A DNA stretch of 64,000 bases, from NCBI RefSeq assembly GCF_029105185.1, contig NZ_JAFMZK010000003.1, positions 372,001 to 436,000 of the forward strand. The letters are read 5' to 3'. Source of the stretch: Aliiroseovarius sp. Z3 (lineage in GTDB: Bacteria; Pseudomonadota; Alphaproteobacteria; Rhodobacterales; Rhodobacteraceae). How positions within the stretch are numbered: the first letter of the stretch is position 1; each line of letters opens with the position of its first letter. Below are positions 8,989-25,724 of this stretch, in pieces. The position numbers and the translations under genes are program-made. The notes beneath the pieces were generated by a model. That model did not search any database. It saw only the letters and a list, made by a program, of their open reading frames with translations, and was not told the origin of the DNA.

Positions 8989-9761
8989 TGAACACTGACG
9001 CAACGACCATCCATGCAAACCGCATAGCTGATTTGGCAGGCGATGCGGCGATGACGTATTTCCGGCACCTGTTAGAGGTTGACCTGAAAGATGACGAAAG
9101 TCCCGTCACCCAGGCAGACCGTGGAGTTGAGCTGCGCGTCCGAGCATATCTGGAGCAGCACTTTCCCGATGATGGCATTCTGGGCGAGGAGTTCGGTCAG
9201 TCAGACCTGACCTGTGATCATGTCTGGAGCATCGATCCCATCGATGGCACACGGTCTTTCTTGTCCGGCCATCCGCTGTTCGGGTTTCTTCTGGCGCGGC
9301 TGTACAAGGGGGAGCCAACCATTGGCCTGATCAGAATGCCCGCGCTGGACGAAACGGTGATTGGCGTGCGGGGCGGTTCTGCGACGTTGAACGGCGACAA
9401 AATTCGCGTCTCGTCGCAGGTTTCGTTGGATCAGGCTATTGTCTATGTCAACGAAGCCGAGAAGATATTTGCCCGACACCCGCAGACTTTTGGCCGTCTC
9501 TTGTCGGCGGGTCAAACCCGTCGGTTCGGCTATGATTGCTATCCCCACGCGTTGGTTGCCATGGGGCATGTCGATGCGGTGGTGGATGAGGATCTGCAAC
9601 CCTATGACTATCTGCCCTTGGTCCCAGTGATCGAAGCGGCTGGCGGCATCATCACGGACTGGAGGGGAGAGCCGTTGACTTTGTCATCGGGGACGTCAGG
9701 CGTTGTGACGGCCGCAACTGCCGATCTTCATGCCGCCCTTCTGGGTTTGGTGGGATCGTAA
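8988..9761 (+). CDS. Inositol monophosphatase-family phosphatase (HisN-like)
   Basis: Mg-dependent, Li-sensitive-type sugar or alcohol phosphate phosphatase. It is 257 aa from the ATG at 8988, which has GAAGG six bases upstream; an ATG two codons earlier (8982) is possible but sits directly on the ribosome site. Metal ligands are visible: Glu67-Glu68 in 'GILGEEFG', Asp83 and Asp86 in 'SIDPIDGTRSF', and Asp207 in 'PYDYLPLVPVIEAAGG'. Family members dephosphorylate inositol phosphate, histidinol phosphate or PAP; the substrate cannot be told from sequence. It is coupled to deoR and sits 1 base before the phosphate transporter. Confidence 0.88.
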   Translation: MNTDATTIHANRIADLAGDAAMTYFRHLLEVDLKDDESPVTQADRGVELRVRAYLEQHFPDDGILGEEFGQSDLTCDHVWSIDPIDGTRSFLSGHPLFGFLLARLYKGEPTIGLIRMPALDETVIGVRGGSATLNGDKIRVSSQVSLDQAIVYVNEAEKIFARHPQTFGRLLSAGQTRRFGYDCYPHALVAMGHVDAVVDEDLQPYDYLPLVPVIEAAGGIITDWRGEPLTLSSGTSGVVTAATADLHAALLGLVGS

Positions 9762-9762
9762 C

Positions 9763-11442
9763 ATGGCCATCGTGAGTTTCGTCATAAGCCTTGCAGGTGC
9801 CACCATGTTGTTGCTGTTCGCGGTGCGTATGGTGCGCACCGGGATCGAACGCAGCTTTGGCGCATCGTTCCAGCGGATGTTGACGGACAATCACAGCCTG
9901 ATCGGCGCCAGCGCGACCGGCGTTTTTTTGGCGATTGTTCTGCAAAGTTCGGCGGCGGTGGCGTTGTTGGCGACCGGCTTCGCTGCGAGCGGTTATCTGG
10001 CTTTCCCGACCGGGCTGGCGATTGTGTTGGGTGGTGATCTGGGATCGGCGCTTATCATTCAGATCCTGTCTTTCAAACTGGATTGGCTGGTGCCTTTGTT
10101 GCTTGCCGTCGGCGGCTGGTTGTTTGTGAAGGTCGAAAGCAAGAAGGGCCGGCAGTTTGGCCGCATCCTGATGGGCGTGGCGTTCATCCTGATCTCGCTG
10201 CAGTTTCTGCGTCAAGCCGTGGCGCCAATCAGCGATAGCGCGTTTCTGCCCGCAGTGTCCGGGTATTTGGCACGTGATTTCGTGACAGCCTTCATCGTCG
10301 GCGCTGCGCTGGCTTTTGTCATGCACTCGAGCGTTGCCGCCATTCTGATGTGCGTGACGCTGGTACAGATCGACGCCATCCCTTTTGCTGCAGCGTTGTC
10401 GCTTCTGTTGGGGGCGAATATGGGCAGCGCGTTCATTCCCATCTGGTTGACGCGCGGAATGCCATTGGCGGGCCGCCGTATTCCGTTTGCAAACTTGATA
10501 CTGCGCGGCAGTTGGGCCTTGATCGTATTGTTGGCTGTGAACCTGCTGTCTGACCCTGAACGCTTGCTGTTTGTCGGTCCTGGCCAGTCACTTATTTATG
10601 CCCATATCGGGTTTAATCTGTCGTTGTTGGTGTTGGCGTTGCCATTCTGCGGTTTGATCGAAGGGCCAATCGTGCAGGTGTTTCCAAGATACTCTGGCGA
10701 TTCAGAAGCTGATGCCGAACAACCCGCCAGCGCGCTGGACCCAACCGCGCTTGATACACCGCAGCAGGCCATTGCCAGTCTGAAGCGGGAGTTGCTGCGG
10801 ATGATAGGGCAGGTTGAACGGATGTTCCACACTGTGCCCCGGCTTTACGAGGCCACGGACAGCTCGGTTCTTCGCACGACCCGTACGAAGGATGATGAAG
10901 TGAATGACACGTTGTCGGGTATCCGATCCTACGTGGCGACGATGCCGCAGGGCATCTATTCCAAAGCAGATACCAAGACGGTTCGTGGGTTGATGGAATA
11001 TGCGATCCGACTTGAAGCCGCAGGTGACGTGATTGCGATGAAACTGACGTCGGTTGCGAAAGAAAAACTGGACGGACACCTGAGTTTCTCAGATGAAGGC
11101 TGGGCGGAGCTTCTTCGAATGCACGAAGCGGTATGCGCCAATTTCCATTTGGCCAGTAATGTATTGGTTTCGGATGATCTGGAAAGCGCGCGGTTGCTTG
11201 TCGTCGAGAAGGCCGATTTCAAACGCGCTGAACGCAAAAGCCGGAAATACCACCTGGCCCGATTGCAAAATGGTCGCGTCGAGAGCTTTGAGACCAGCGA
11301 CATCCATTTGGAAACTTTGCGCGCCCTGCGAGACATAAATAATCACATCGCTGCAATTGCCTATCCGATCCTTTATCGCAATGGCCAGCTTCTGGAAACG
11401 CGTCTGATCGAAGACTTGGACGGCAAGGAAGTGAGCGACTGA
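9763..11442 (+). CDS. Na+/phosphate cotransporter-family protein with C-terminal PhoU-like domain
   Basis: Inner-membrane PNaS/NptA-type transporter. It is 559 aa. The two inverted Na/Pi_cotrans repeats each carry the QSS-type motif: 'QSSAAVALL' from residue 61 and 'HSSVAAILM' from 188. About eight or nine membrane segments end near residue 310. A soluble helical PhoU-like domain follows (about 345-545). Family members move phosphate with sodium; bacterial NptA-like proteins with a PhoU tail have also been linked to phosphate efflux. It is tightly linked to the phosphatase and DeoR genes and lies 307 bp before the phosphonate importer, which releases phosphate on catabolism. Direction of transport is inference. 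Confidence 0.87.
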   Translation: MAIVSFVISLAGATMLLLFAVRMVRTGIERSFGASFQRMLTDNHSLIGASATGVFLAIVLQSSAAVALLATGFAASGYLAFPTGLAIVLGGDLGSALIIQILSFKLDWLVPLLLAVGGWLFVKVESKKGRQFGRILMGVAFILISLQFLRQAVAPISDSAFLPAVSGYLARDFVTAFIVGAALAFVMHSSVAAILMCVTLVQIDAIPFAAALSLLLGANMGSAFIPIWLTRGMPLAGRRIPFANLILRGSWALIVLLAVNLLSDPERLLFVGPGQSLIYAHIGFNLSLLVLALPFCGLIEGPIVQVFPRYSGDSEADAEQPASALDPTALDTPQQAIASLKRELLRMIGQVERMFHTVPRLYEATDSSVLRTTRTKDDEVNDTLSGIRSYVATMPQGIYSKADTKTVRGLMEYAIRLEAAGDVIAMKLTSVAKEKLDGHLSFSDEGWAELLRMHEAVCANFHLASNVLVSDDLESARLLVVEKADFKRAERKSRKYHLARLQNGRVESFETSDIHLETLRALRDINNHIAAIAYPILYRNGQLLETRLIEDLDGKEVSD

Positions 11443-11749: not shown

Positions 11750-12772
11750 ATGAAACACACAGCGAAAAGACTTGCGTCCTTTCTGGCTGGCGTCGCCTTC
11801 GCGACCGTCGCGGTCGCAGAGACCGAGTTGACAGTCTATACTGCCGTCGAAGCTGAAGATTTGGCGCGCTACGCTGAGACGTTCAACCAAAGTCACCCCG
11901 ACATCAAAATCAACTGGGTGCGCGATTCCACCGGGATTATCACCGCGAAACTGCTGGCCGAGCGTGACAACCCGCAGGCCGATGTGGTTTGGGGATTGGC
12001 GGCGACGTCGCTGTTGCTTCTGAAATCCGAAGGGATGTTGGAGCCGTATGCTCCGGCCGGCGTCGAAAACCTTGATCCGAAATTCGTGGACGGAGACAGC
12101 CCGCCTGCTTGGGTTGGCATGGACGCCTGGGTTGCCTCGGTTTGCTATAACACTGTCGAGGCTGAGAAACTTGGCCTGACGCCGCCCACATCCTGGAAGG
12201 ATCTGACCGATCCCATGTATGCGGGTCATGTGATCATGCCGAACCCGAATTCCTCTGGCACGGGCTTCCTTGATGTATCCAGCTGGCTGCAAATGTTCGG
12301 TGAAGAGGGTGGCTGGGAGTATATGGACGCGCTGCATGAAAACATCGCGCGCTATACCCATTCGGGATCGAAGCCCTGCAAACTGGCGGCATCGGGCGAA
12401 ATTCCGATCGGCATCTCGTTTGCTTTCCGCGGTGCCAAGTCGAAGGCCGATGGTGCCCCGCTGGAGATCATCGTGCCATCTGAGGGCGTTGGTTGGGACA
12501 TGGAAGCCACCGCAATCGTTGCTGGCACAGCCAATCTTGAAGCCGCGCAGACCCTGGTTGACTTCACCGTCACCAAAGAAGCCAACGAAATGTATAACTC
12601 CGGCTATGCGGTTGTTGCCTATCCGGGCATCGCCAAGCCGGTCGAACATTTCCCCGAAGGTCTGTTGGATGCGATGATCGACAACGATTTTGAGTTTGCG
12701 GCGAACAATCGTGCCGCCATTCTGGAAGAATGGCAGGGCCGCTATGACGGCAAGTCCGAGCCCAAATCCTAA
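11750..12772 (+). CDS. aepX: 2-Aminoethylphosphonate ABC importer, periplasmic binding protein
   Basis: Captures 2-AEP in the periplasm for import. It is 340 aa with a signal peptide ending near residue 23 ('ATVAVA-ETEL'). The mature start 'ELTVYTAVEAEDLARYAETF' and later 'PQADVVWGLAATS' place it in the iron/spermidine/phosphonate cluster of extracellular binding proteins. The assignment to 2-AEP comes from the linked phnWAY catabolic genes and a fused two-domain permease, as described for AepXVW. A terminator-like hairpin follows the stop, allowing excess binding protein. Confidence 0.85.
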   Translation: MKHTAKRLASFLAGVAFATVAVAETELTVYTAVEAEDLARYAETFNQSHPDIKINWVRDSTGIITAKLLAERDNPQADVVWGLAATSLLLLKSEGMLEPYAPAGVENLDPKFVDGDSPPAWVGMDAWVASVCYNTVEAEKLGLTPPTSWKDLTDPMYAGHVIMPNPNSSGTGFLDVSSWLQMFGEEGGWEYMDALHENIARYTHSGSKPCKLAASGEIPIGISFAFRGAKSKADGAPLEIIVPSEGVGWDMEATAIVAGTANLEAAQTLVDFTVTKEANEMYNSGYAVVAYPGIAKPVEHFPEGLLDAMIDNDFEFAANNRAAILEEWQGRYDGKSEPKS

Positions 12773-12780
12773 GCCAAACA

Positions 12781-12810
12781 AACGGGGGACAGAATCCTGT
12801 TCCCCGTTTT
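12781..12810 (+). terminator. Stem-loop between aepX and aepV
   Basis: AACGGGGGACAG and CTGTTCCCCGTT form a 12-bp stem (one mismatch) around an AATC loop, followed by TT. It lies 8 bases after aepX and 90 bases before aepV. It is likely a partial terminator or mRNA-stabilising stem that sets a high binding-protein to transporter ratio. Confidence 0.7.
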
Positions 12811-12900
12811 CACACACGCCCTTTCCAGACTTCAGAAACGCGCCCGGTTGCGACTGGATGGATGTGGCCGTGAAACACCCGACAACGTAAGGACACGCCC

Positions 12901-14016
12901 GTGATACAAGAAACTGCTATAGGCCAGAAAACCTATCTCAGCATCGACAAGCTGTGGAAAGCCTTCGGCCCATTTCTCGCGCTGAAAGACATCTCGTTGG
13001 ACATCAGCGACGGCGAATTCGTGTGCTTCCTTGGCCCGTCCGGATGCGGCAAGACCACCCTGCTCCGGGCCATCGCGGGACTTGATCTGCAAACCAAGGG
13101 AACGGTCATGCAGGACGGCCGCGATGTGTCGAACCTGCCACCGTCCGAGCGGGATTTCGGCATCGTGTTCCAATCCTATGCCTTGTTCCCAAACCTGACG
13201 ATTGAAAAGAATATCGCGTTCGGTCTGGAAAACACGGGTCGCAGCAAATCCGAAATCGCCGTGCGCGTCAGCGAATTGCTGGAGCTGGTTGGCCTGCCGG
13301 ATCAGGGCGCCAAGTACCCGGCCCAACTGTCTGGCGGTCAACAGCAACGGATTGCACTTGCCCGCGCGATCGCCACCAACCCCGGTCTTCTGCTGCTGGA
13401 TGAGCCGCTTTCGGCGCTGGACGCCAAGGTGCGCGTCCATCTGCGCCATGAGATCAAAGAGCTTCAGCGTAAGCTGGGTGTGACAACCGTGATGGTGACG
13501 CATGACCAGGAAGAAGCCCTGGCCATGGCCGATCGAATCGTCGTGATGAACCATGGTGTGATTGAACAGGTTGGATCACCGACCGAAATTTATCGCGAGC
13601 CCGCGAACTTGTTTGTCGCCGACTTTATCGGAGAGATGAACCAAATCGATTCAATCGTCGCCGAAGGCGGACGGCTTAGCGTTGGAGAAAAAACCTTTGC
13701 CTGTCACGACCATAAGTTCAGCGATGGTACCGCCGTTGTCGCCGCCATCCGCCCCGAGGACATCATCCCGCACGAACACGGCTATACGGCCGACGATCCA
13801 AACCGAAACTGCATCGAGGTGTTGCTGCATGAAATGGAGTTTCTTGGATCGTTCTGGCGGTGCCGCCTGCATAACGAACGGTTCGGCGGGTCCGAGCTGA
13901 TCGCCGATTTCTCGATCAACGCGGTGCGCCGGTTGGATTTGGGCGTGGGTCGCAAGATGATCATTGAACTGCCCATCGACCGTCTGATGGCATTTGACCG
14001 ACCGGAGGCAAGCTGA
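12901..14016 (+). CDS. aepV: 2-Aminoethylphosphonate ABC importer, ATPase
   Basis: Energises 2-AEP import. It is 371 aa with a GTG start preceded by AAGGA seven bases upstream. Walker A 'GPSGCGKTT' is at 45-53, signature 'LSGGQQQR' at 143-150 and Walker B 'LLLLDEP' at 163-169. A C-terminal TOBE-type regulatory domain (about 270-370) follows, as in spermidine/phosphonate-type ATPases. Its stop shares one base with the aepW start (TGATG), so the two are coupled. Confidence 0.88.
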   Translation: MIQETAIGQKTYLSIDKLWKAFGPFLALKDISLDISDGEFVCFLGPSGCGKTTLLRAIAGLDLQTKGTVMQDGRDVSNLPPSERDFGIVFQSYALFPNLTIEKNIAFGLENTGRSKSEIAVRVSELLELVGLPDQGAKYPAQLSGGQQQRIALARAIATNPGLLLLDEPLSALDAKVRVHLRHEIKELQRKLGVTTVMVTHDQEEALAMADRIVVMNHGVIEQVGSPTEIYREPANLFVADFIGEMNQIDSIVAEGGRLSVGEKTFACHDHKFSDGTAVVAAIRPEDIIPHEHGYTADDPNRNCIEVLLHEMEFLGSFWRCRLHNERFGGSELIADFSINAVRRLDLGVGRKMIIELPIDRLMAFDRPEAS

Positions 14017-16034
14017 TGACCGATGCGACAGATCTGTCCGAGCTGCCCGCTGGCCCGACGGTCCAAGGAAAGTTAAGCCGCGACGACATCATGATGCGCG
14101 GCGGAATGCTTGTCATTGCCTTGTATCTGGTCATCACCCTGGCGTTTCCGCTTTACGCCATGTTGTCGAAGTCGTTTTCGACATATCGGTTTGAGCTGGC
14201 CCAATATGAATTCCAGATGAGCGACGAAGATGGTGTATTTGATGGCACCATTTTAAACGGTGCGGAATTGAATGAACAAACCGGAGCGTTTGATGAGCTT
14301 GATCTTAGCGCAGGATCGGATGGGCGGATTGGCGTAACGGGTTTCTTCCCGGAGTTCAGCTTCCGCAGCCCGGTCATGTACCAGATTCGAAACACCAGTG
14401 ACACGGGGCGGTTTCTGGTCGGCTCTAAGCTGGAGGATGGTACAGACTGGGTGACTTTGGACAGCAACACCTTTCGTCGGGTGCAACTGCGACCGATGGA
14501 ATCCACCGGTTTTGGCAACTTTATCAACTACTTCTCGACGCCTGCACTGTTCAACTCGATCAAGAATTCGTTGTGGATCGCGGTGGTCAGCACCATCGTG
14601 ACGGTGACGCTGGCCTTCTGGTTTGCCTATGCGCTGAACCGCAGTTGCATGCGTTACAAGGGGGTATTCCGCCTGATCGCGATGGCCCCGATCCTCGTGC
14701 CCTCTTTGTTGCCCGGCATCGCACTGGTCTATCTGTTCGGCAACCAAGGCATGATCAAGGAATTGCTGTTTGGCGCCAGTATCTATGGCCCGATCGGCAT
14801 CGTCATCGGATCCGTGTTCTTCACCTTTCCTCATGCGTTCATAATTATTTCGACGGCGCTGGCGGTGTCGGATGCGCGGCTTTACGAAGCAGCGGCCAGT
14901 TTGCGGGCGACGCGCTGGCGTACCTTCTGGACCGTTACCATTCCCGGCGCACGCTATGGCCTGATCTCGGCGGCCTTCGTGGTGTTCAACCTTGTGATCA
15001 CCGATTTCGGCCTGCCGAAGGTGATCGGGGGGCAATTCAACGTGCTTGCCGTGGACATTTATAAGCAGGTGATCGGCCAGCAGAATTTCGAAATGGGCGC
15101 CGTGGTGTCTGTGGTGCTGGTGATTCCTGCGATCTTCGCCTTTGCCATCGACCGGCTGGTGCAGTCGAAACAGGTCGCGCTGTTGTCGGCGCGCTCGGTC
15201 CCGTACCAGCCACAGCCCGACAAACGTACGGATACGTTTTCGTTCATCTATTGTGCCTTTGTTGGCCTGTTCATCATTGGTATTCTGGCGGTCTGTCAGT
15301 TCGCCGCCCTGATCAAGTTCTGGCCCTATGACCTGAGTCTGAGCCTGAACAACTATCAGTTCGACAGGATGGATGGCGGCGGCTGGGGGTCGTACTTCAA
15401 CTCGATCAAGTTGGGTCTGCTCACGGCCGTGTTCGGTACGGCGATCGTGTTCTTTGGCGCGTATCTTGTCGAAAAGACCAATGGCTTCAAAACCGGACGT
15501 GCGTTGTTCCAGATGTTTGCCATGCTGCCCATGGCCATCCCCGGTATGGTGTTGGGTCTGGCGTATATCTTTTTCTTCAACAACCCATCCAACCCGCTGA
15601 ACGCCATTTACGGCACCATGGCGATTTTGGTGATCTGTTCGGTGACTCACTTCTATACGGTGTCGCACCTGACGGCGGTTACGGCATTGAAGCAGATGGA
15701 TCGCGAGTTTGAATCTGTCTCCGCATCATTGAAACAGCCAACCCTGAAGCTGTTCAGCCGGGTGACGGTGCCGGTGTGCCTGCCGTCGATCCTGGACATT
15801 TCGATCTATCTTTTCGTCAATGCGATGACGACCGTGTCGGCGGTGGTGTTCCTTTATTCACCCAAGACGTCGCTGGCGTCGATTGCGGTGCTGAATATGG
15901 ATGATGCGGGCGACATCGCCCCGGCTGCCGCGATGGGGATGATGATCTTCTACACGAATGCCGCCGCGCGGATCATTCACCTGCTGGTGTCAAAGGGTGT
16001 TTTGACGCGAACGCAGGCTTGGCGAACGCGGTGA
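14016..16034 (+). CDS. aepW: 2-Aminoethylphosphonate ABC importer, fused two-domain permease
   Basis: Membrane channel of the importer. It is 672 aa, twice a normal permease, because two BPD_transp_1 domains are fused: the first about residues 180-385, the second about 440-665. EAA-loop motifs appear in each half ('EAAASLRATRWRTFWTVTIPG' region and 'ESVSASLKQPTLKLFSRVTVP'). A soluble segment of about 110 residues (roughly 55-165) lies between the first helix and the rest, presumably periplasmic. It ends the importer operon; a bidirectional hairpin follows. Confidence 0.88.
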   Translation: MTDATDLSELPAGPTVQGKLSRDDIMMRGGMLVIALYLVITLAFPLYAMLSKSFSTYRFELAQYEFQMSDEDGVFDGTILNGAELNEQTGAFDELDLSAGSDGRIGVTGFFPEFSFRSPVMYQIRNTSDTGRFLVGSKLEDGTDWVTLDSNTFRRVQLRPMESTGFGNFINYFSTPALFNSIKNSLWIAVVSTIVTVTLAFWFAYALNRSCMRYKGVFRLIAMAPILVPSLLPGIALVYLFGNQGMIKELLFGASIYGPIGIVIGSVFFTFPHAFIIISTALAVSDARLYEAAASLRATRWRTFWTVTIPGARYGLISAAFVVFNLVITDFGLPKVIGGQFNVLAVDIYKQVIGQQNFEMGAVVSVVLVIPAIFAFAIDRLVQSKQVALLSARSVPYQPQPDKRTDTFSFIYCAFVGLFIIGILAVCQFAALIKFWPYDLSLSLNNYQFDRMDGGGWGSYFNSIKLGLLTAVFGTAIVFFGAYLVEKTNGFKTGRALFQMFAMLPMAIPGMVLGLAYIFFFNNPSNPLNAIYGTMAILVICSVTHFYTVSHLTAVTALKQMDREFESVSASLKQPTLKLFSRVTVPVCLPSILDISIYLFVNAMTTVSAVVFLYSPKTSLASIAVLNMDDAGDIAPAAAMGMMIFYTNAAARIIHLLVSKGVLTRTQAWRTR

Positions 16035-16053
16035 TCGCCTGATGCAGAAAACC

Positions 16054-16086
16054 AAAAAGCGTCAGCTTAGTCGCTGGCGCTTTTTT
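16054..16086. terminator. Bidirectional terminator between aepW and the LysR gene
   Basis: AAAAAGCGTCAGC and GCTGGCGCTTTTTT form a 13-bp stem (one G-T wobble) around TTAGTC. There are T-tracts in both directions, so it can serve the convergent aepW (plus) and lysR (minus) transcripts. The lysR stop codon (16067-16069) and its last codons lie inside the hairpin. Confidence 0.88.
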
Positions 16087-16951
16087 CATCTTGGGCCTTG
16101 CGCGCGAACTCCATAAATGCGCGGATCACTTTGACATCGCGCCTTTGGCCCAGATGCACCAATGTCTCGCTCATCTCGATATCGGCATCAGCCAGCGTGA
16201 TCTGCACCAACCGGTCGTCATGGCCAAACTCGGCCTGCGATACAAAACCGATCCCGGCCCCCGAGGCGACCACCTCACGCACGGCTTCGCGCCCTTCCGC
16301 GACGATTGCCGGGGTCAGGACCAGCCCTTGTTTCTTTGCGGTCTCTTCAAGCTTCTGCCGGGTCTTGGAACCTTGTTCGCGAAAGATCAGCGGCAAAGAG
16401 GCCAGATCCTTCAGACTGAGCGACACCTTTGATGCCAGTGACGATCCGCGCGCCGCGAAGGCGGTTATCTTGGTCGTTCCAAGGTTCAACGCCTCCATAT
16501 CAGTGCCGGGGGTCAGGCTTCCGACGATGCCTATTTCGGCGTTGTAAGCGCGCAGATCCTCAAGGATTTCCTCGGTGTTTCCGGCGCGCAATGTGACCGA
16601 AATATTGGGGTAACGAGTGCGAAAATCACCTAGAAAATGGGTGATGTGGTGGGCGCTGTCGGCGACGATGCGAAGTTCCCCGTCAACCGCAGCGCTGGTT
16701 GAGGACATGTAGTCCTCGATCTTCTGTTCGATTTCGAAATACTGCTTGGTGAACAGGAAAAGCTGTGCGCCCTCTTCGGTCAATCGCACCCGCTTCCGCT
16801 CGCGATGAAACAGAAGCGTATCGTGATCCTGCTCAAGCTTTTTCACCTGCTCCGAAATCGCCGGCTGGGTTAGAAATAACGCCTCGGCCGCACGCGAGAA
16901 GCCGCCCAGAAGGGCGACGTGATGAAAGGCTTTCAACTGGCTGTGGCGCAT
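16067..16951 (-). CDS. LysR-family regulator of the phosphonate genes
   Basis: DNA-binding regulator, 294 aa. The N-terminal winged HTH (about residues 3-60) reads 'LKAFHHVALLGGFSRAAEAL' and 'LTQPAISEQVKKLEQDHDTLL'. The periplasmic-binding-like effector domain (about 90-290) includes 'GELRIVADSAHHITHFLGDF' and 'REVVASGAGIGFVSQAEFG'. It is divergent from phnW with a 119-bp spacer and convergent to aepW, the usual position for a LysR activator of 2-AEP catabolism. The inducer is inferred to be 2-AEP or a pathway intermediate. Confidence 0.85.
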   Translation of the reverse strand: MRHSQLKAFHHVALLGGFSRAAEALFLTQPAISEQVKKLEQDHDTLLFHRERKRVRLTEEGAQLFLFTKQYFEIEQKIEDYMSSTSAAVDGELRIVADSAHHITHFLGDFRTRYPNISVTLRAGNTEEILEDLRAYNAEIGIVGSLTPGTDMEALNLGTTKITAFAARGSSLASKVSLSLKDLASLPLIFREQGSKTRQKLEETAKKQGLVLTPAIVAEGREAVREVVASGAGIGFVSQAEFGHDDRLVQITLADADIEMSETLVHLGQRRDVKVIRAFMEFARKAQDEKSASD

Positions 16952-16974
16952 CGGATTCCTCCCAGAATTCGGAC

Positions 16975-16989
16975 ATAAGTAAAACCTAT
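16975..16989. promoter_or_regulatory. LysR-type T-N11-A site in the lysR/phnW spacer
   Basis: ATA-AGTAAAACC-TAT is an imperfect dyad that fits the T-N11-A pattern bound by LysR regulators. It lies just upstream of a plausible phnW promoter (-35 TTGATC at 16993-16998, 16-bp spacer, -10 CATATG at 17015-17020), where an activator would be expected to bind. Confidence 0.45.
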
Positions 16990-17070
16990 GCTTTGATCGT
17001 TAATTGCAATTTCACATATGGATCAAACTGCTGCAATGCTGTTCTTGTGTTCCCCCTTCGGAGACAAATC

Positions 17071-18258
17071 ATGACCGCCGTAGACAACCAAATAGAATCG
17101 CCCCGTTTGGGCGAACCATATCTTCTGACCCCTGGTCCACTGACCACGTCATTCGCAGTCAAAGAAGCGATGTTGCGTGACTGGGGCAGTTGGGATGATG
17201 ACTTCCGCGCGATGACGCGCGACATGCGCAAACGCTTGCTGGCGCTGCTGGGCGATGGGTCGGATGACTTCGACTGCGTACCGATGCAGGGCAGCGGTTC
17301 GTTCTCGGTCGAGGCGATGCTGGCATCCTTCATCCCGCGTGATGGCAAGGCGCTGGTGCTGGCCAACGGCGCTTATGGGATGCGGTCGGCACAAACGCTG
17401 GAGTATCTGGGCCGGAACCACGTTGTCTTGAACAAGGGCGATTATCTGCCGCCCCGCGGCGACGAGGTCGCGCAGATCTTGGCCGATGATCCCGCAATTA
17501 CCCATGTCGTCGCGATCCACTGTGAAACCAGCTCCGGCATCCTGAACCCGGTTGAGGAGATTTCCGAAGCCGTCTATGCCGCCGGGCGCAAACTTCTGAT
17601 CGACTCGATGTCTGCTTTTGGCGCGATCGAGTTGAAGGTCGCCGATATCCGCTATGAGGCGATGGTATCCTCGGCCAACAAATGTATCGAAGGCGTGCCG
17701 GGTTTCGGTTTCATCATTGCGCGTAAATCCGAGCTTGAAGCCGCCAAGGGCAATAGCCATTCGCTGAGCCTGGATGTCCATGCACAATGGGCACACATGA
17801 ACAAAACTGGCCAGTGGCGCTTTACCCCGCCCACCCATGTGGTCGCCGCCTTCCTTGAGGCCCTGCGCGGGCACGAGGCAGAGGGCGGCGTTGCCGGGCG
17901 TGGCGGGCGCTATACCCGCAACCGCGACGTGATGGTCGACGGGATGCGCGAATTAGGGTTCGAAACCCTGCTGAAAGATCGCTGGCTGTCCCCGATCATC
18001 GTGACCTTCTTCTGCCCTGCAGATGAAAACTTCGTCTTTGACCGCTTCTATGACCGGATGAAAGACAAGGGTTTCATCATCTATCCCGGCAAGCTGACCG
18101 TGGTTGACAGTTTCCGCGTTGGCTGCATCGGTCAGATGGATGAACACGTCATGCGGCAGGTTGTCACCGCCGCCAAAGAAACACTGGATGAAATGGGCGT
18201 GGAAAGTGCCGCGCCCCCCGCCATCGCACTTGAAGAACGCGCCAAGCTGGCTGCCTGA
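17071..18258 (+). CDS. phnW: 2-Aminoethylphosphonate-pyruvate transaminase
   Basis: PLP enzyme that moves the amino group of 2-AEP to pyruvate, giving phosphonoacetaldehyde and alanine. It is 395 aa from the ATG at 17071 behind GGAG. The class V aminotransferase opening 'LLTPGPLTTSF' and 'DWGSWDDDF' (about 18-45) is typical of PhnW. Asp178 in 'LLIDSMSAFGAI' and the PLP lysine 204 in 'SSANKCIEGVPGFGF' are in place. A C-terminal tail of about 25 residues (after 370) is longer than in many PhnW proteins. It heads phnW-phnA-phnY. Confidence 0.94.
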   Translation: MTAVDNQIESPRLGEPYLLTPGPLTTSFAVKEAMLRDWGSWDDDFRAMTRDMRKRLLALLGDGSDDFDCVPMQGSGSFSVEAMLASFIPRDGKALVLANGAYGMRSAQTLEYLGRNHVVLNKGDYLPPRGDEVAQILADDPAITHVVAIHCETSSGILNPVEEISEAVYAAGRKLLIDSMSAFGAIELKVADIRYEAMVSSANKCIEGVPGFGFIIARKSELEAAKGNSHSLSLDVHAQWAHMNKTGQWRFTPPTHVVAAFLEALRGHEAEGGVAGRGGRYTRNRDVMVDGMRELGFETLLKDRWLSPIIVTFFCPADENFVFDRFYDRMKDKGFIIYPGKLTVVDSFRVGCIGQMDEHVMRQVVTAAKETLDEMGVESAAPPAIALEERAKLAA

Positions 18259-18279
18259 GATATACGAAGGAACGACCTT

Positions 18280-19524
18280 ATGACCATTCAAACCCCCGTT
18301 GTAGCAAACGGGCGCGCCTATCCTGCTCCGAAAACCTGCGCGATTGCGATCTGCCTTGACGGGTGCGAGCCAGAGTATCTGGACAAGGCGATTGCCGATG
18401 GGTTGATGCCGACCTTGAAGCGGATGCGCGCGGAAGGCACCGACCGGCTGGCGCATTCGGTGATCCCGTCTTTCACCAACCCCAACAACCTGTCGATTGC
18501 GACAGGTCGCCCGCCGGTGGTGCATGGGATTTGCGGCAATTACCTGTATGAGCCTGAGACCGGCGAAGAGGTGATGATGAACGACGTGCGTTTTCTGCGC
18601 GCGCCGACGGTCTTCAAGGCGTTCTATGATGCGGGTGCCCGTGTGGCCGTTGTGACCGCGAAGGACAAGCTGCGCGCCCTTCTGGGGGCTGGGCTGAAGT
18701 TTGACGACGACCGCGCCAAATGCTTCTCGGCCGAGAAATCCGATACATCGACCCAGGAAGACCATGGTCAGGCCGAGGCCAGCAAATGGCTGGGCATGGC
18801 ACAGCCCGAGGTCTACTCGGCCGAGCTGTCCGAGTTCGTCTTTGCTGCCGGCGTCAAGCTTCTGCGCGAATGGAAGCCGGACGTGATGTATCTGACCACC
18901 ACGGATTACGTGCAGCACAAATACGCCCCCGATCAGGCCGAGGCGAAAGCGTTTTACGAGATGTTCGACAAGTACCTGACCGAGCTGGACGCGCTGGGTG
19001 CTGCCATCGTCGTGACCGCTGACCACGGCATGAAGCCCAAGCACCACGCCGACGGCTCGCCTTCGGTCGTCTATGTGCAGGACCTTCTTGACGAATGGTT
19101 GGGTGAGGCTGCCGCGCGTCTGATCCTGCCGATCACCGACCCCTATGTGGTGCACCACGGCGCGCTGGGGTCGTTTGCGACCGCCTATCTTCCCGACAGC
19201 GCCAATCAGGATGACATCATCGCCAAGCTGCGTGCAACCGATGGGATCACCGACGTGCTGACCAATGCAGAAGCGGTTGCCCGCTTTGAATTGCCTGCAG
19301 ACCGGATCGGTGACATCGTTCTGGTGTCAGGTGAAAACATCTGCATCGGCACGTCCGAGCACCGCCATGACCTTGCCGCGCTGAATGAACCCCTGCGCAG
19401 CCATGGCGGTTTGACCGAGCAAGAGGTGCCGTTCATCTGCAACCGTGTATTGCCCCTGCCGGAACGCCCCGTGCTGCGCAACTTCGACGCGTTCTTCTAT
19501 GCCACTCAGGCGGCGGCGCTTTGA
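18280..19524 (+). CDS. phnA: Phosphonoacetate hydrolase
   Basis: Cleaves phosphonoacetate to acetate and phosphate; a two-zinc enzyme of the alkaline phosphatase superfamily. It is 414 aa. Catalytic residues match the Sinorhizobium enzyme with a constant offset of two: Asp27 ('[10 protein letters not shown]'), nucleophile Thr66 ('[10 protein letters not shown]'), Asp209 and His213 ('[12 protein letters not shown]'), Asp248-His249 ('[12 protein letters not shown]') and His375 ('[12 protein letters not shown]'). It lies 21 bases after phnW and 16 before phnY. Confidence 0.95.
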
Positions 19525-19540
19525 TATGAAGGATAATGTC

Positions 19541-20989
19541 ATGAGCAAAGACGACATCCGTCACGAAGGGATGCGCATAGGGGGCGAGATTGTTTTTGCC
19601 GATGATGTCGTGCCTGTGAAGTATCCCTATACCGACGAGGTCATTGGCACCGTGCCCGCCGGCAACGCTGAACATGCGCGCCGTGCCTTTGAGATTGCGG
19701 CGAATTACAAACCCAAACTGTCGCGTTATGAGCGGTCGCAAATCCTTCAACGCGCAGGCGAATTGATCGGGGAACGGCGCGAATTTCTGGCCAAGTGGCT
19801 GGTGCTGGAGCTGGGCATCTGTCACCAGCACGCGATCTATGAAACCAAGCGCGCGCAGGATGTTTATCAGTTTGCCGCCGCTCAGGCGATGAATGATGAT
19901 GGCGAGATTTTCTCGTGTGATCTGACTCATAACGGGAAAGAGCGCAAGATCTTCACCAAGCGCGAACCGGTGCGGGCGATCAGCGCGATCACACCGTTCA
20001 ACCACCCGCTGAACATGGTCAGCCACAAGATCGCACCCTCGATTGCGACCAACAATTGCATGGTGTGCAAACCGACGGAACTGACACCACTCACGGCAAT
20101 TGCGTTGGCTGATATCCTGTACGAAGCGGGCTTGCCGCCAGAGATGTTTCAGGTGGTCACCGGCTGGCCGCAAGACATCGGCGAAGAGATGATCGTCAAT
20201 GAAAACATCGACATCATCACCTTCACCGGTGGCGTGCCGGTGGGCAAGATGATTGCCGAAAAGGCGTCATACAAACGGCAGGCGCTGGAGCTTGGCGGCA
20301 ACGATCCCCTGATTATCTGCAACGACCTGACCGACGCCGATCTGGACAAGGCCGCGACCATTGCGGTGGCGGGGGCGACCGGCAATTCCGGTCAACGGTG
20401 CACCGCGATCAAGCGTATTCTTGTGCAGGAAAGCGTGGCCGACAGGTTCGTGCCATTGGTGCTTGAGAAGGCCAAGAAGATCAAGTTTGGCGACCCGCAA
20501 GACCCGGATACGGAACTCGGCTGCGTGATCCACGCTCAGGCCGCCGAGCTTTTCGAAAAGCGTGTGTTCATGGCCGAGAAAGACGGCGCCGAAATCCTGT
20601 ATCACCCCGGTCGTTACGGCGCGCTGTTGCCCCCGATCGTGGTGGACCGCGTGCCGCATGACAGCGAATTGGTGATGGAAGAAACCTTCGGTCCGATCAT
20701 CCCGATCGTCCGGGTTCCAGATGATGATGAGGAGGTCATGAGGATCTCGAACTCGACCCAGTTCGGTCTGTCGTCGGGCGTTTGCACCAATGATTTGAAC
20801 CGGGCGATTGCCTATATCAACGGGCTGGATGTGGGCACCTGCAATATCTGGGAACAACCCGGATACCGGATTGAAACGTCCCCGTTCGGCGGCATCAAAG
20901 ACAGTGGCAACGCCGTCAAGGAAGGTGTCACCGAGGCGATGAAGTTCTTTACGAACGTCAAGACATACTCCCTTCCCTGGCCGAATTGA
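19541..20989 (+). CDS. phnY: Phosphonoacetaldehyde dehydrogenase
   Basis: NAD-dependent aldehyde dehydrogenase that oxidises phosphonoacetaldehyde to phosphonoacetate. It is 482 aa from the ATG at 19541, preceded by GAAGGA seven bases away; an ATG at 19526 is possible but has no ribosome site. Catalytic Cys287 ('[12 protein letters not shown]'), general base Glu250 ('LELGGNDP') and Asn154 ('[10 protein letters not shown]') are present, at a constant four-residue offset from the Sinorhizobium PhnY. It completes the WAY route. A strong terminator follows. Confidence 0.93.
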
Positions 20990-21020
20990 CATGCGCCAGG
21001 TCGTTTCTTCCTCCCTGACT

Positions 21021-21051
21021 GCGAGGCCCGGTTTCCGGGTCTCGCCTTTTC
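21021..21051 (+). terminator. Terminator after phnY
   Basis: GCGAGGCCCGG and CCGGGTCTCGC form an 11-bp stem (one G-T wobble) around TTT, followed by CTTTTCC. It lies 31 bases after phnY and 13 bases before pbfA, so pbfA expression depends on read-through or a promoter inside phnY. Confidence 0.82.
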
Positions 21052-21064
21052 CGTTCGAGGTCCC

Positions 21065-22420
21065 ATGACAACAAAAATTGTTCACACCGAAGGCGAATCC
21101 AACACGTCAGATGCGCGGCGTGCGTGGTTGAAGAAATCCATTGGCCCCAAGTCCGGGCCATTGCTGAAACGTGATGGCAGCGCGTTTATGCACCAAAGCC
21201 TGTCCAGCCCCTGTGTCAGCACCATCGCCAAGGCCGATGGTATCTGGATCGAGGATATGGACGGGCGTAAGTTCATGGATTTCCATGGAAACTCGGTCCA
21301 CCATATCGGCTATGGCCACCCCAAGCTGGTGGCCGCGATCAAGGCGCAGCTTGACGACCTTCCCTTCGCCCCGCGCCGCTTCACAAATGATCCTGCCGTC
21401 GAACTGGCCGAGAAACTGGCACAGATTGCGCCGGGTGACCTTGGGAAAATCCTGTTCACCACCGGCGGATCGGACGCCAACGAAGTGGCGCTGAAGATCG
21501 CGCGTGCGGCGACGGGTCGGTTCAAAACGATTTCGTTCTGGGATGCGTTCCATGGGGCGGGGCTGGGGGCCGCGAGTGTTGGCGGCGAGGCGACCTTCCG
21601 GAGCCACATCGCCGGGCCGCTTCTGTCGGGTACCGAGCATGTCGCGCCCTTCGCCTGCTATCGTTGCCCCTATAATCATGAAAGCCCGGACACCTGTGGG
21701 TTGGCCTGTGCCAAGATGGTCGAATACGTGCTGGAGCGCGAAGGCGACGTGGCCGCGGTGATTGCCGAGCCGATGCGTGCGGTACCGTATGTTCCGCCGG
21801 CTGGTTTCTGGAAATCCGTGCGTGAAGCATGCAGCCGTCACGGCGCGCTGCTGATCATGGATGAGATACCGACCGGGCTGGGAAAGACCGGCAAGATGTT
21901 TGCGTTCGAGCATGATCAGATCATCCCAGACATCGTCACAATGGGCAAAGCGCTGGGCGGGGGCATCCTTCCCATCGCTGCATGTGTGGCCCGGAAAGAG
22001 CTGGATGTCTGCGGGGATTTCGCAATCGGGCATTATACGCACGAGAAAAATCCGGTCACGTCCCGCGCTGCCCTGACCACCATCGAAATCATTGAGGAAG
22101 AAGGGTTGGTCGAACGCTCTGCCGAGCTTGGCAAACACGCGATGCAGGTGCTGAAGGATCGTCTGCAGGATGTTACAACGGTCGGAGACATTCGCGGTCG
22201 CGGCCTGATGTTCGGGGTTGAGATTGTCGAGGATCGCGCCTTGAGAACTCCGGGCAACGCGCGGGCCGAGCGGATCTATTATGCCTGTCTGGAGGCGGGG
22301 CTGAGTTTCAAGATCAGCCAAGGCTGCGTTCTGACCCTGTCGCCCCCCCTGACCATTTCGCGCGACGATCTGGATCGTGCGCTTGATATCGTGGTGACGG
22401 CGATCAAAGACGCAGCATGA
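21065..22420 (+). CDS. pbfA: Class III PLP enzyme, probable (R)-1-hydroxy-2-aminoethylphosphonate ammonia-lyase
   Basis: Fold-type I class III aminotransferase family, 451 aa. PLP lysine 295 is in 'VTMGKALGGGILP' and Asp266 in 'LLIMDEIPTGLGKTGKMF'. The context is decisive for function: it directly follows phnWAY, where the class III member described in phosphonate clusters is PbfA. PbfA turns (R)-hydroxy-AEP into phosphonoacetaldehyde plus ammonia, feeding phnY. Odd feature: four cysteines at 198, 201, 211 and 215 ('CYRCPYNHESPDTCGLAC'), a possible metal or structural site. It could instead be another class III transaminase. Its stop overlaps the EamA gene start (ATGA). Confidence 0.72.
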   Translation: MTTKIVHTEGESNTSDARRAWLKKSIGPKSGPLLKRDGSAFMHQSLSSPCVSTIAKADGIWIEDMDGRKFMDFHGNSVHHIGYGHPKLVAAIKAQLDDLPFAPRRFTNDPAVELAEKLAQIAPGDLGKILFTTGGSDANEVALKIARAATGRFKTISFWDAFHGAGLGAASVGGEATFRSHIAGPLLSGTEHVAPFACYRCPYNHESPDTCGLACAKMVEYVLEREGDVAAVIAEPMRAVPYVPPAGFWKSVREACSRHGALLIMDEIPTGLGKTGKMFAFEHDQIIPDIVTMGKALGGGILPIAACVARKELDVCGDFAIGHYTHEKNPVTSRAALTTIEIIEEEGLVERSAELGKHAMQVLKDRLQDVTTVGDIRGRGLMFGVEIVEDRALRTPGNARAERIYYACLEAGLSFKISQGCVLTLSPPLTISRDDLDRALDIVVTAIKDAA

Positions 22421-23256
22421 CTGCGCAGATCGCTCTGATCGTTTTGTCGGCGGCCTTTCTGCACGCGCTCTGGAATGCGTTGGTCAAAGGGGCAGGGGAC
22501 AGGGTGATCATGCTGGGCATGATTGCATTGGGCCATGTCGCCTTCGCGCTGACGTTCATCGGGTTCGTGCCAATTCCCGACGTGTCTGCATGGCCTTACA
22601 TGGCGGCGTCTATCGCGATTCACTGGCTTTATTTCTATTTCCTGAACGTGGCTTACAGGCTGGGTGATCTTAGCTTCATCTATCCCGTGGCGCGTGGTTT
22701 TGCCCCGGTTCTGGTCGCGTTGGGCGCACAGTTTTGGGTGGACGAAGTGCTGCCGCTGCAAGCGTGGATCGGCATCTTCTGTGTCTCAGCCGGGATCATG
22801 TTTCTGGCTCAGGGCGCGTTCGATGCAGCGATGTCCCGAAACGCGCTGCTGGCAGCGTTGGCGATTGGTGGAACCGTTGTGCTCTACACGTTGGTCGATG
22901 GGATCGGTGTGCGAAATGCGGGCCACGCGCTGGGATATATTGGTTGGCTGTTCCTGTCTAAAATCCTGATTGTGCTGTTTCTGTTTCCCAGCCGCATGGA
23001 CCGGCTGCGCGCGCAATCGCCCAGAACACTGTTGATCGGCTTCATGGGGGGCGTCGTCTCGGGCTCGGCCTATGCCTTGGTGCTGTATGCCAAGACCATC
23101 GCACCGTTGGGCATTGTGTCGGCACTGCGCGAAACATCGGTGATATTCGCCGCCTTGATTGGGGTCTTGTGGTTTGGAGAAGGACCAAAGGCGCGACGAC
23201 TGTTGTCCGCGGGCGCTGTTGGCGCCGGGATCATCTTTATCGGATTGGGGCGCTGA
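22417..23256 (+). CDS. EamA/DMT-family transporter
   Basis: Ten-helix drug/metabolite transporter superfamily protein, 279 aa, with two EamA repeats (about residues 1-135 and 145-278). The N-terminus 'LIVLSAAFLHALWNALVKGAGD' and the C-terminal 'IAPLGIVSALRETSVIFAALIGVLWFGE' are typical. It is translationally coupled to pbfA, so it may move a compound linked to phosphonate use (substrate uptake or product export). The substrate cannot be predicted. Confidence 0.85.
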   Translation: MTAQIALIVLSAAFLHALWNALVKGAGDRVIMLGMIALGHVAFALTFIGFVPIPDVSAWPYMAASIAIHWLYFYFLNVAYRLGDLSFIYPVARGFAPVLVALGAQFWVDEVLPLQAWIGIFCVSAGIMFLAQGAFDAAMSRNALLAALAIGGTVVLYTLVDGIGVRNAGHALGYIGWLFLSKILIVLFLFPSRMDRLRAQSPRTLLIGFMGGVVSGSAYALVLYAKTIAPLGIVSALRETSVIFAALIGVLWFGEGPKARRLLSAGAVGAGIIFIGLGR

Positions 23257-23264
23257 TCCGCGCC

Positions 23265-24278
23265 TTAGTCGGCAAACACAACGCCTTTGCTCTGCGCCCT
23301 TAGGCGTGGGTCGTGGGATTTGACCAGAACATCGCGACCTTCAAGCACCTCGCGGCAGCGGGCAAGGGTTTCATCCTCAAGCCGTTCCATCGCGTCTTCG
23401 GTATAGAACGTCAGATGAGGTGACAGGATCACATTTGGGTGGTCAAACAGTTCGCTCATCGGGTGGCCGGTGCGGGTGAGGGGTTCCTGACTGAACACGT
23501 CCAGTCCGGCACCTGCAATCCAGCCCTCGCGGATCGCCTTTACAAGCGCCGCCTCGTCAACAATCGCACCGCGTGACACGTTGATCAAAAAGGCCGAGGG
23601 CTTCATCGCGCGAAGCTCGTCTGTGCCGATCATGCCGCGTGTGTCGTCATTCAACACTGAATGGATGGTGACGAAATCGCTTTGAGCCATCAGATCGCGC
23701 AGATTGTCGACCTTCGTTACACCCAGTTCGGCCATTTCCTCAGCCGAGGTGTGCGGGCTGTAGGCGATGACATTCGCGCGAAACCCCAAACCGGCCATAC
23801 GCGCCATGCTGCGCCCGATTTTGCCCAAGCCGACGATCCCGACAGTCTTGCCTGCGATGTCTGATCCCAACCAAGTCGGCTCGGGCCAGGCCCATCCGAG
23901 CGATGTCATATGCGTGTTGAGTGCAGTCAACTTCTTGGCCAGCGCGATCAAAAGGGCAAACGCCCCTTCGGCCACCGTTTCTTCCGCATATTCCGGCACG
24001 TTGACCACGGCCACCCCGGCGTCGATGGCTGCGGGAATGTCGATGGCGTCAATACCGACGCCATATTTGACGATGCCCTTCAACCGGGATGCATTTTCTA
24101 TGATCTGGCGCGTGATCGGCGTGTAACACATCAGGATCAGGTCGGCATCGCGCGTCGCCTCCAACATTACGCTTTCCGAGACCCCGTCCGGCAGCAGCAC
24201 CAACTCGTGCCCGGCCGAGATTAACCCGGCATCCAGTTTCGGGGTCTGAAGTTCGCTGTCCGTGCGCACGATTTTCAT
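23265..24278 (-). CDS. D-isomer-specific 2-hydroxyacid dehydrogenase
   Basis: NAD-dependent oxidoreductase of the phosphoglycerate/lactate dehydrogenase family, 337 aa. The ATG at 24278 follows AGGAAG; the frame opens 24 codons earlier without a ribosome site. The Rossmann motif 'TVGIVGLGKIGRSMARM' (about 155-170) is present. So are the catalytic Arg in 'LINVSRGAIVDEAALVKAI' and the His in 'VILSPHLTFYTEDAMERLE', with an acidic residue expected near 'DVFSQEP'. It is convergent with the EamA gene, 8 bases between stops. Substrate (glycerate, glyoxylate or another 2-keto acid) is not predictable. Confidence 0.88.
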   Translation of the reverse strand: MKIVRTDSELQTPKLDAGLISAGHELVLLPDGVSESVMLEATRDADLILMCYTPITRQIIENASRLKGIVKYGVGIDAIDIPAAIDAGVAVVNVPEYAEETVAEGAFALLIALAKKLTALNTHMTSLGWAWPEPTWLGSDIAGKTVGIVGLGKIGRSMARMAGLGFRANVIAYSPHTSAEEMAELGVTKVDNLRDLMAQSDFVTIHSVLNDDTRGMIGTDELRAMKPSAFLINVSRGAIVDEAALVKAIREGWIAGAGLDVFSQEPLTRTGHPMSELFDHPNVILSPHLTFYTEDAMERLEDETLARCREVLEGRDVLVKSHDPRLRAQSKGVVFAD

Positions 24279-24637
24279 GGGTCTTCCTGCTCTGATGAAG
24301 TTCGTGCAAAGGCTATCGTTTGTCGCGCTGGGACGCCATTGCGAACGCATGTTTGACGCGGGATGAAGTGATGTGTTGCTTTGTCGGCGCGGTGGCTACA
24401 GGCTTTTGGCGAACGATGCCAGCGTGAGAGGATCTGTGATGTCATCCTGGTTTCCGTTGCTGATCACAGAAGCACCGGAAAAACGGCTTTGAACTGTCCG
24501 TCTAATCGTCGCGCGTCGCGGTCAGGATGAACCGGCCAGATGTCGAGGCGTTGATTGCCGTCAGAGAGGTGGTGGCCACGCATTTTGCCACGGTTGCAGC
24601 AGCCAACAGCGAATTCTGGCAATCGCGCGCTTGGGGC
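24279..24637. other. 359-bp spacer without a confident gene
   Basis: Short open frames exist on both strands: a minus frame ending at 24502 and a plus frame starting with the ATG at 24527 that runs into the ybiB-like gene. Neither has a ribosome site or a recognisable family. The minus frame ending '...STSGRFILTATRDD' looks fairly coding-like and might be the eroded end of a gene lost downstream of ybiB, but I cannot name it. Confidence 0.35.
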
Positions 24638-25543
24638 TTAGGCCATATCCTTGAGCCGGGCAGTGGGACCAGTCCCGGCAAGTGTATCATGCACGAGTTC
24701 GATGGTTCCCGCAATCATGGCGCGCGTAAACGGAGCGTCGACGGGAGCCAGTGGCCCATCATAATCCTGAAGTCGGGCGATCTCGTCCACCAAGGGCGGC
24801 ACGCTGTTCTGCCAAGGCTGACCCTGTCGCAATCCAAATGCTTCGACCGTCTTGGCCGGATGACGTTCAAATTCGCCACCGCCCCCTTTGATTACAGTCA
24901 GCGCCTTCCAACCCAGAAGCCGTGCGGCATCGGCCTGCAGCAGCCGATAAGACGGATGAAAAACACCCTGAACACTTGCCGCAGCGCGACCGGGGTTCAG
25001 CATTCTGCACACCGTGTTCACACATGATCGAAGCCCCAAGATTTCCCGCAGGTTTAGCAGAGCAAAAAGGCGGGGGTGGATTGTCTCGAGCGGCAGATAG
25101 GCAATGCATCCGAGATCAAGCGCAGATGCGGCGTCATCCAGCGTGGTGCAATACGGAATACCCAGTGTCTTCAGCCCCGCACGGACGCGTGTGTCAGGTC
25201 CGTTCCAGCCATGCAGCAAAACCCGCGTCCCGCCCTGTGCGATGGACTGGGCAGCATGCAGAAACCAGGGTGCCCCGCGCGTACGCCCCGCCGCATAGCT
25301 CGGCCAATCAAGATCCGCCGCTGGTCCCGCGCGCAATGCATCCTGCGCCGCTTGTGCAAATCCGGCGATTTCGTCGGCGGTTTCGCCCTTCATTCGCATC
25401 AGCATAAGTATGGCTCCAACCGCCTCCGGCGGGGCATCATCGGATAGCATAAGCGTCATGGCGCGATACGCTTCCACCTGTGTCAGAGACCGCGCACGAC
25501 CCGGACCACGCCCCAATATCCGGACATATTCCGCCAAGCTCAT
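24638..25543 (-). CDS. YbiB/TrpD2-like glycosyltransferase-family protein
   Basis: Related to anthranilate phosphoribosyltransferase but not TrpD itself. It is 301 aa; the frame extends 96 codons upstream, but 'MSLAEYVRILGRGPGRARSL' at 25543 is the natural domain start. The all-alpha N-terminal domain (about 1-75) has 'VEAYRAMTLMLSDDAPPEAVGAILMLMRMKGE'-type residues of the TrpD N-domain. The GTGGD loop that binds PRPP in true TrpD is missing (here 'AAGRTRGAPWFLHAAQS'). E. coli YbiB of this type binds nucleic acid. The cellular role here is unknown. Confidence 0.75.
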   Translation of the reverse strand: MSLAEYVRILGRGPGRARSLTQVEAYRAMTLMLSDDAPPEAVGAILMLMRMKGETADEIAGFAQAAQDALRAGPAADLDWPSYAAGRTRGAPWFLHAAQSIAQGGTRVLLHGWNGPDTRVRAGLKTLGIPYCTTLDDAASALDLGCIAYLPLETIHPRLFALLNLREILGLRSCVNTVCRMLNPGRAAASVQGVFHPSYRLLQADAARLLGWKALTVIKGGGGEFERHPAKTVEAFGLRQGQPWQNSVPPLVDEIARLQDYDGPLAPVDAPFTRAMIAGTIELVHDTLAGTGPTARLKDMA

Positions 25544-25724
25544 TGCGCAGTCTCCCCATCTGTTGCGTCGTTGAAGGTTGTTGCTGATCACGTGTTTTGA
25601 CAGCACCAGTTCTACATTGCTGTCAACGTGTGATCCACTCTGCTGCGTAAATGCCGTTCGTGCCAACGCTTTGCGGTGTCTGAAGCTCTTGTGTGACTGC
25701 GTTGAATGCGGCCCGCGTTCCCGC

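Follow-up and report, generated by a model that had tools for sequence, protein, structure and literature searches.

The window analysed here is a stretch of 64,000 nucleotides of Aliiroseovarius sp. Z3, contained in an assembly of 3.52 Mb. From 11750 to 24278 it carries a gene cluster for aminoethylphosphonate (AEP) with the order phnS2-phnT2-phnU2, a LysR gene on the opposite strand, phnW, phnA, phnY, pbfA, an EamA gene and a convergent pfam02826 gene. The features, with NCBIfam scores where these define them, are as follows.

8077-8988, DeoR-type regulator, upstream of the AEP importer genes
8982-9761, inositol-monophosphatase-family protein, upstream of the AEP importer genes
9730..11442, + strand, Na/Pi cotransporter family protein with PhoU domain (PF02690 and PF01895; often found near AEP genes and near some EamA relatives)
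11750..12772, + strand, phnS2, binding protein of the AEP ABC importer (TIGR03261, 511 bits, cut-off 393)
12901..14016, + strand, phnT2, AEP importer ATPase (TIGR03265, 525 bits, cut-off 458)
14016..16034, + strand, phnU2, AEP importer permease (TIGR03262, 778 bits, cut-off 593)
16067..16951, - strand, LysR regulator of AEP-associated type (TIGR03339, 292 bits, below the cut-off of 341)
17071..18258, + strand, phnW, AEP-pyruvate transaminase (TIGR02326, 477 bits, cut-off 401)
18280..19524, + strand, phnA, phosphonoacetate hydrolase (TIGR02335, 501 bits, cut-off 408)
19526..20989, + strand, phnY, phosphonoacetaldehyde dehydrogenase (TIGR03250, 742 bits, cut-off 636)
21021..21045, + strand, terminator-like hairpin in the phnY-pbfA gap (11 pairs and a short T tail; stems in relatives)
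21065..22420, + strand, pbfA (451 aa, PF00202; NF049939, 677 bits, cut-off 525; PbfA tree group, 100/99; THEK motif)
22417..23256, + strand, EamA/DMT-fold transporter of the AEP-cluster group (279 aa, PF00892; tree and gene context; model pLDDT 92.3, DMT fold)
23265..24278, - strand, pbfF, probable NAD-dependent 2-amino-1-hydroxyethylphosphonate (HAEP) racemase (PF02826; 58-89% identity to PbfF-like proteins; PbfA linkage; tree)

A first-pass annotation of the DNA had described two open reading frames, 21065-22420 (+) and 22417-23256 (+), next to phnWAY. Both are present, the EamA start overlapping the pbfA stop by ATGA, and phnW, phnA and phnY lie directly 5' of pbfA, each above its NCBIfam cut-off. 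An Rfam search of 8000-26000 gave zero matches.

PbfA is described as converting R-HAEP to phosphonoacetaldehyde and ammonia and as inactive on S-HAEP (PMC8154272, in excerpt). The product of 21065-22420 reached its top score with the PbfA model (NF049939, 677.4 bits against a cut-off of 525), and when eight class III candidates of the genome, which holds 11 class III genes, were scored with this model only 21065-22420 came out at E<=1e-145. In a tree drawn without the assayed Vibrio splendidus protein and without characterised transaminases, 36 PbfA-like proteins split from 13 class III paralogs with a support of 100/99; all our trees were midpoint-rooted, so that a group denotes one side of a branch. 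The 36 were taken from 92 PbfA-like proteins and included those of Azospirillum lipoferum 4B and Vibrio alfacsensis, both of which fall on the PbfA side, and the paralogs included nine of the ten other class III places of the genome itself (the tenth was lost in filtering), several paralog branches being long. The V. alfacsensis protein comes from a phnW-pbfA-phnX cluster, and from the fit of place and neighbours we infer that the A. lipoferum 4B protein is the published accession PbfA_A.lip. A THEK motif is found in all 92 proteins of at least 44% identity (THEKNP in 88, THEKS in four); none of the 13 paralogs has THEKNP, other segments standing at that position, and GHYTHEK is invariant in the 40 sequences of PbfA alignment A3. 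The identity of the window protein is 94-96% to three Aliiroseovarius PbfA proteins. Model score, tree group (the check that the first-pass annotation had proposed for its naming of the gene) and motif agree with that name and support the prediction that 21065-22420 encodes PbfA, the R-HAEP ammonia-lyase. The window protein and the PbfA of V. splendidus (PMC8154272, in excerpt) are alike in the equivalog-domain model passed, the tree group, the phnWAY context and the conserved motif; the window protein is 44-45% identical to the Vibrio homologs listed and differs from the V. alfacsensis protein in a patch of four cysteines. In another locus (L078:7079-8197) a TmpA-type 2-trimethylaminoethylphosphonate dioxygenase gene lies between phnY and pbfA (NF049936, 513 bits, cut-off 400).

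The patch consists of Cys198, Cys201, Cys211 and Cys215. It had been flagged as an oddity, and it is indeed present at 198-215 but not peculiar to this protein, as 65 of the 92 PbfA-like proteins have all four residues. It is incomplete in the other 27, among them the V. alfacsensis protein, Mesorhizobium proteins and a few Rhodobacterales proteins, and it therefore cannot be catalytic for the family; we rejected it as a catalytic feature. Cys198 and Cys211 occur together in 65 proteins and are both missing in 26, with Cys211 alone in one, and such joint gain or loss would suit a metal site or a paired structural role. The structure model has a mean pLDDT of 67-77 at the patch.

The hairpin at 21021-21045 has 11 pairs, nine of them G-C, and is followed by CTTTTCC. 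A scan for terminator-like sites found nine against 8.2 expected, and folding of the 75-base gap between phnY and pbfA gave z = -1.66, with 13 of 200 shuffles as good. The site scan and the fold score leave room for chance, and the support for the hairpin is its conservation: two Aliiroseovarius loci (L098 and L099) have an 11-pair stem of different sequence in the same gap, and a stem with at least four T in eight bases is found in 16 of the 41 phnY-pbfA gaps examined. The earlier proposal of a terminator that separates the control of pbfA and the EamA gene from that of phnY thus stands for the hairpin itself, with its short T tail and a stem kept in close relatives, and separate control is plausible here. 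It is not general, since the gap measures only about -4 to 13 bases in seven of the 41 relatives.

Eight bases past the EamA stop and tail to tail with it lies the pfam02826 gene 23265-24278 (-), missing from the first-pass annotation, whose product has 337 aa from a homolog-supported start. The HAEP racemase PbfF, an NAD-using member of pfam02826, was published in 2025, and within the published list it is always in the same cluster as pbfA (PMC12366243, in excerpt). The window gene likewise belongs to pfam02826 and shares an AEP cluster with pbfA. Its product is 58-89% identical to PbfF-like proteins, seven of them in organisms of the published Table 1, as judged by proteins in organisms of those names and not letter by letter against the published accessions: identity is 66-76% for the proteins of R. 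litorisediminis, A. crassostreae, S. aestuarii, R. euryhalinum, B. aestuarii and M. plurifarium, and 64% for that of Labrys sp. WJW. Compared with the PbfF of Mesorhizobium plurifarium (PMC12366243, in excerpt) it is alike in pfam02826, in its 337 aa and in the company of pbfA and phnWAY; the protein in an M. plurifarium assembly (L145) is 67% identical, and its gene lies directly 3' of pbfA on the same strand, whereas the window gene is transcribed towards pbfA with the EamA gene in between. A PbfF tree that also included the proteins of the Table 1 organisms puts the window protein together with proteins from Aliiroseovarius, Roseovarius and Shimia; of the 85 sequences one was excluded because of its length, the bootstrap was unsettled and the outgroup branch very long.

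PbfF relatives at E<=1e-75 occur in three of the 198 genomes of a family sample, and each of them lies no more than 1.5 kb from PbfA. Scanning genome contigs gave 244 related loci, 80 of which were kept; PbfA lies within 3 kb in 54 of the 80 and within the fetched stretch in 55, including all seven that bear organism names of Table 1. The remaining 25, several of them cut short by contig ends, were considered as counter-examples and rejected as such: when 11 of these 25 genomes were searched in full, PbfA was found above cut-off in all 11, against a background of 21 in the 198 family genomes. One of the loci with no PbfA in the stretch, L165 of Defluviimonas sediminis FT324, may match by an older name a Table 1 entry that is reported to have pbfA in its cluster (PMC12366243, in excerpt). 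It belongs to a PbfF-like group of Defluviimonas, Frigidibacter and others (100/99) with 11 loci without PbfA in the stretch (L117, L119, L125, L129, L130, L131, L134, L136, L142, L159, L165); PbfA was found elsewhere in all nine of the genomes searched. Taken together, these data indicate that 23265-24278 very probably encodes PbfF, the HAEP racemase.

Each of the two enzymes could in principle be a commoner member of its superfamily. The PLP enzyme might be a transaminase (for beta-alanine, GABA or similar) that duplicates or supports PhnW and sits beside phnWAY by accident. It is of the same fold class, class III transaminases and racemases are its best matches among solved structures, and with 633 bits it also exceeds the cut-off (467) of NF004755, the generic 'aspartate aminotransferase family protein' model. 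Yet NF049939 is the highest-scoring model, the other 23 among the best 25 of 69 models matched stay below cut-off, and with a separate tree group and THEK where the paralogs carry other segments a transaminase is extremely unlikely. The convergent gene might similarly encode an ordinary D-2-hydroxyacid dehydrogenase unrelated to phosphonates. No model naming PbfF is among the NCBIfam models that its product matched, and the best matches are phosphoglycerate dehydrogenase and glyoxylate reductase. These scores are far under cut-off (255 against 454 and 222 against 455 bits) and PbfA is present in all genomes tested, the three of the family sample as well as the 11 searched in full, so that we regard a dehydrogenase of this kind as very unlikely. 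PbfA and PbfF are here ordinary new members of published families.

We conclude that the window very probably holds a phnWAY-type AEP utilisation cluster that is extended by the published HAEP branch and has the EamA protein as a pathway-wide accessory transporter. Family membership is assigned here by sequence, and the activities of PbfA and PbfF are carried over from characterised homologs (PMC8154272 and PMC12366243, both in excerpt). In the proposed route the phnS2T2U2 importer would bring in AEP and probably also HAEP. PhnW would convert AEP to phosphonoacetaldehyde; PbfF would interconvert S-HAEP and R-HAEP with NAD, and PbfA would act on R-HAEP by elimination to give ammonia and phosphonoacetaldehyde. 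PhnY would then oxidise phosphonoacetaldehyde to phosphonoacetate, which PhnA would split into acetate and phosphate. With PbfA and a probable PbfF beside phnWAY the cluster is predicted to process AEP and both enantiomers of HAEP, R-HAEP and S-HAEP. A comparison at the genome level backs the published link between PbfA and PbfF. From its gene context, the EamA protein would serve the whole AEP pathway rather than act as a dedicated HAEP carrier.

The EamA gene is often physically tied to pbfA. The family sample and the 80 loci contain 21 tandem pairs in which pbfA and EamA are adjacent; in 18 of these the pbfA stop overlaps a start codon that is followed by an open frame (10 ATGA, five GTGA, three TTGA). 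Of the 21 PbfA genomes in the family sample, 12 have EamA no more than 100 bases from PbfA, once convergently, and six have no EamA match of 200 bits or more. Loci L061-L080 were fetched for holding PbfA, so that context counts over all loci are biased and the comparison of the 198 genomes, 22 of which have an EamA match of at least 200 bits, is the unbiased test. PhnY is present in 18 of these 22 genomes versus 11 of the 176 others (Fisher p about 1e-14). Within the 29 PhnY genomes EamA occurs in 14 of 20 with PbfA and in four of nine without it, which is no significant tie (p = 0.24). The 22 best EamA places, the window included, comprise 16 with AEP genes, three beside an Na/Pi gene (G075, G073, G038) and three with neither (G108, G037, G043). 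For lower-scoring matches 25 loci were looked at, some in short contigs, and five of the 81 plasmid records with EamA matches were opened.

Outside pbfA clusters the gene is found beside phnY (L083, L089) or beside phnX and phnW (L084) in loci without pbfA, and after phnY, again with no pbfA, in Leisingera methylohalidivorans. EamA also follows phnY where pbfA is absent and is therefore not a PbfA-only partner, while the overlap so often seen with pbfA argues for some link between the two. The gene lies upstream of phnSTU in Ruegeria sp. AD91A and Aminobacter sp. MDW-2, in the latter with no phnWAY within 9 kb, and some relatives have Na/Pi genes as neighbours but no AEP gene in the vicinity. 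The idea that EamA stands in for the ABC importer was rejected as a general rule, phnSTU and EamA being found together in several loci.

A tree of 63 EamA proteins puts the window protein in a group of 27 (99/98), 25 of them in AEP context plus two others. A wider group of 40 (100/99) adds further AEP-context proteins and a branch of six, four of which are encoded beside Na/Pi genes; the 23 proteins outside it have neither AEP nor Na/Pi context. Lys226 is kept in 88% of the 34 proteins of the AEP set and in all six of the Na/Pi branch, and the position is Met or Phe in 22 of the 23 paralogs. Arg93, Arg166 and Arg238 are invariant. The structure model (pLDDT 92.3) matches DMT-fold transporters. 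Among the matches listed the highest TM-score, 0.82, is with the choline importer LicB (7paf), which has the DMT fold in common with the window protein; at 13% identity this likeness gives no inference on the substrate. The sole NCBIfam match is TIGR03340 (phn_DUF6, phosphonate utilization associated putative membrane protein) at 148 bits, far below the cut-off of 288. We rejected this match as proof of a phosphonate role, as four paralogs without AEP context score 135-155 bits.

Three roles can be weighed for the EamA protein. In the first, put at rather less than even probability, its group would be a dedicated and undescribed transporter of the AEP/HAEP pathway that has been repeatedly recruited into AEP clusters, often overlapping pbfA and sometimes directly after phnY or phnX without pbfA, while a sister branch pairs with an Na/Pi-family protein. 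Such a transporter could bind a phosphonate or phosphate anion via Lys226 together with Arg93, Arg166 and Arg238. The second role is that of a dedicated hydroxy-AEP carrier working with PbfA; the first-pass annotation had suggested that the protein could move hydroxy-AEP or another phosphonate. The overlapping starts in 18 of 21 tandem pairs and the adjacency in 12 of 21 PbfA genomes fit such a carrier, but the relatives after phnY or phnX in the four loci without pbfA, the Aminobacter gene beside phnSTU and the lack of a significant EamA-PbfA tie among PhnY genomes all speak against it, and we consider it improbable. The annotation's statement that the gene has no known role there fared better: we found no paper on an EamA/DMT family transporter with aminoethylphosphonate or on TIGR03340 in the open-licence literature (the figures of the Pbf papers, which draw unnamed transporter genes, were not seen). 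Transport of HAEP in particular has no specific support, given the loci without pbfA and the p value above.

A further reading concerns the products. AEP contains one N per P, and its use for nitrogen would thus leave surplus phosphate; many EamA proteins are exporters. The Na/Pi protein would then, as we infer, export phosphate, and the EamA protein would dispose of alanine, acetate or the like. Nine of the 20 family PbfA loci other than the window contain an Na/Pi-family gene, as do 20 of the 66 loci that have PhnW or PhnY, against none of the 25 EamA loci of lower score that lack AEP genes, and phosphate is released when AEP serves as nitrogen source (PMC8316502, in excerpt). However, Na/Pi proteins may import phosphate as well, LicB is an importer, and 11 of the 20 loci showed no Na/Pi gene, so that disposal of products appears on the whole unlikely, if a good deal less so than the HAEP carrier. 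The EamA group seems to be the only part of the cluster that is undescribed in the literature searched, with the distantly related TIGR03340 already named by NCBIfam as phosphonate-associated. The group is a clear place to look for a step in the transport of aminophosphonates, or in the export of their products, that has so far been overlooked.

The set at 8077-11442 of the window (DeoR, inositol-monophosphatase-family and Na/Pi-PhoU genes) recurs, whole or in part, beside EamA relatives without AEP genes in L085, L086, L088 and L178. In Ruegeria conchae (L177:3256-9813) an EamA relative is preceded by genes encoding a glutamine-synthetase-family enzyme, an aldehyde dehydrogenase and an iron-containing alcohol dehydrogenase, a neighbourhood that may point to an amine or amino-alcohol pathway.

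Outside the window, several relatives' loci carry a GlpD-like FAD oxidoreductase (L064:9292-10746, 484 aa, PF01266), whose best NCBIfam match is glycerol-3-phosphate dehydrogenase at 175 bits, below the cut-off of 352. The gene is found near PbfA together with EamA and/or PbfF in six loci (L064, L072, L101, L107, L112, L172), the other five copies being 54-58% identical to that of L064. In the family sample close copies are present in two of 198 genomes, both near PbfA, and three more are found at 34-42% identity. The loci of the two pbfD-bearing organisms that we could match (L145, L153) contain TIGR03364-like proteins, and the GlpD-like oxidoreductase therefore looks like an enzyme other than the pbfD product.
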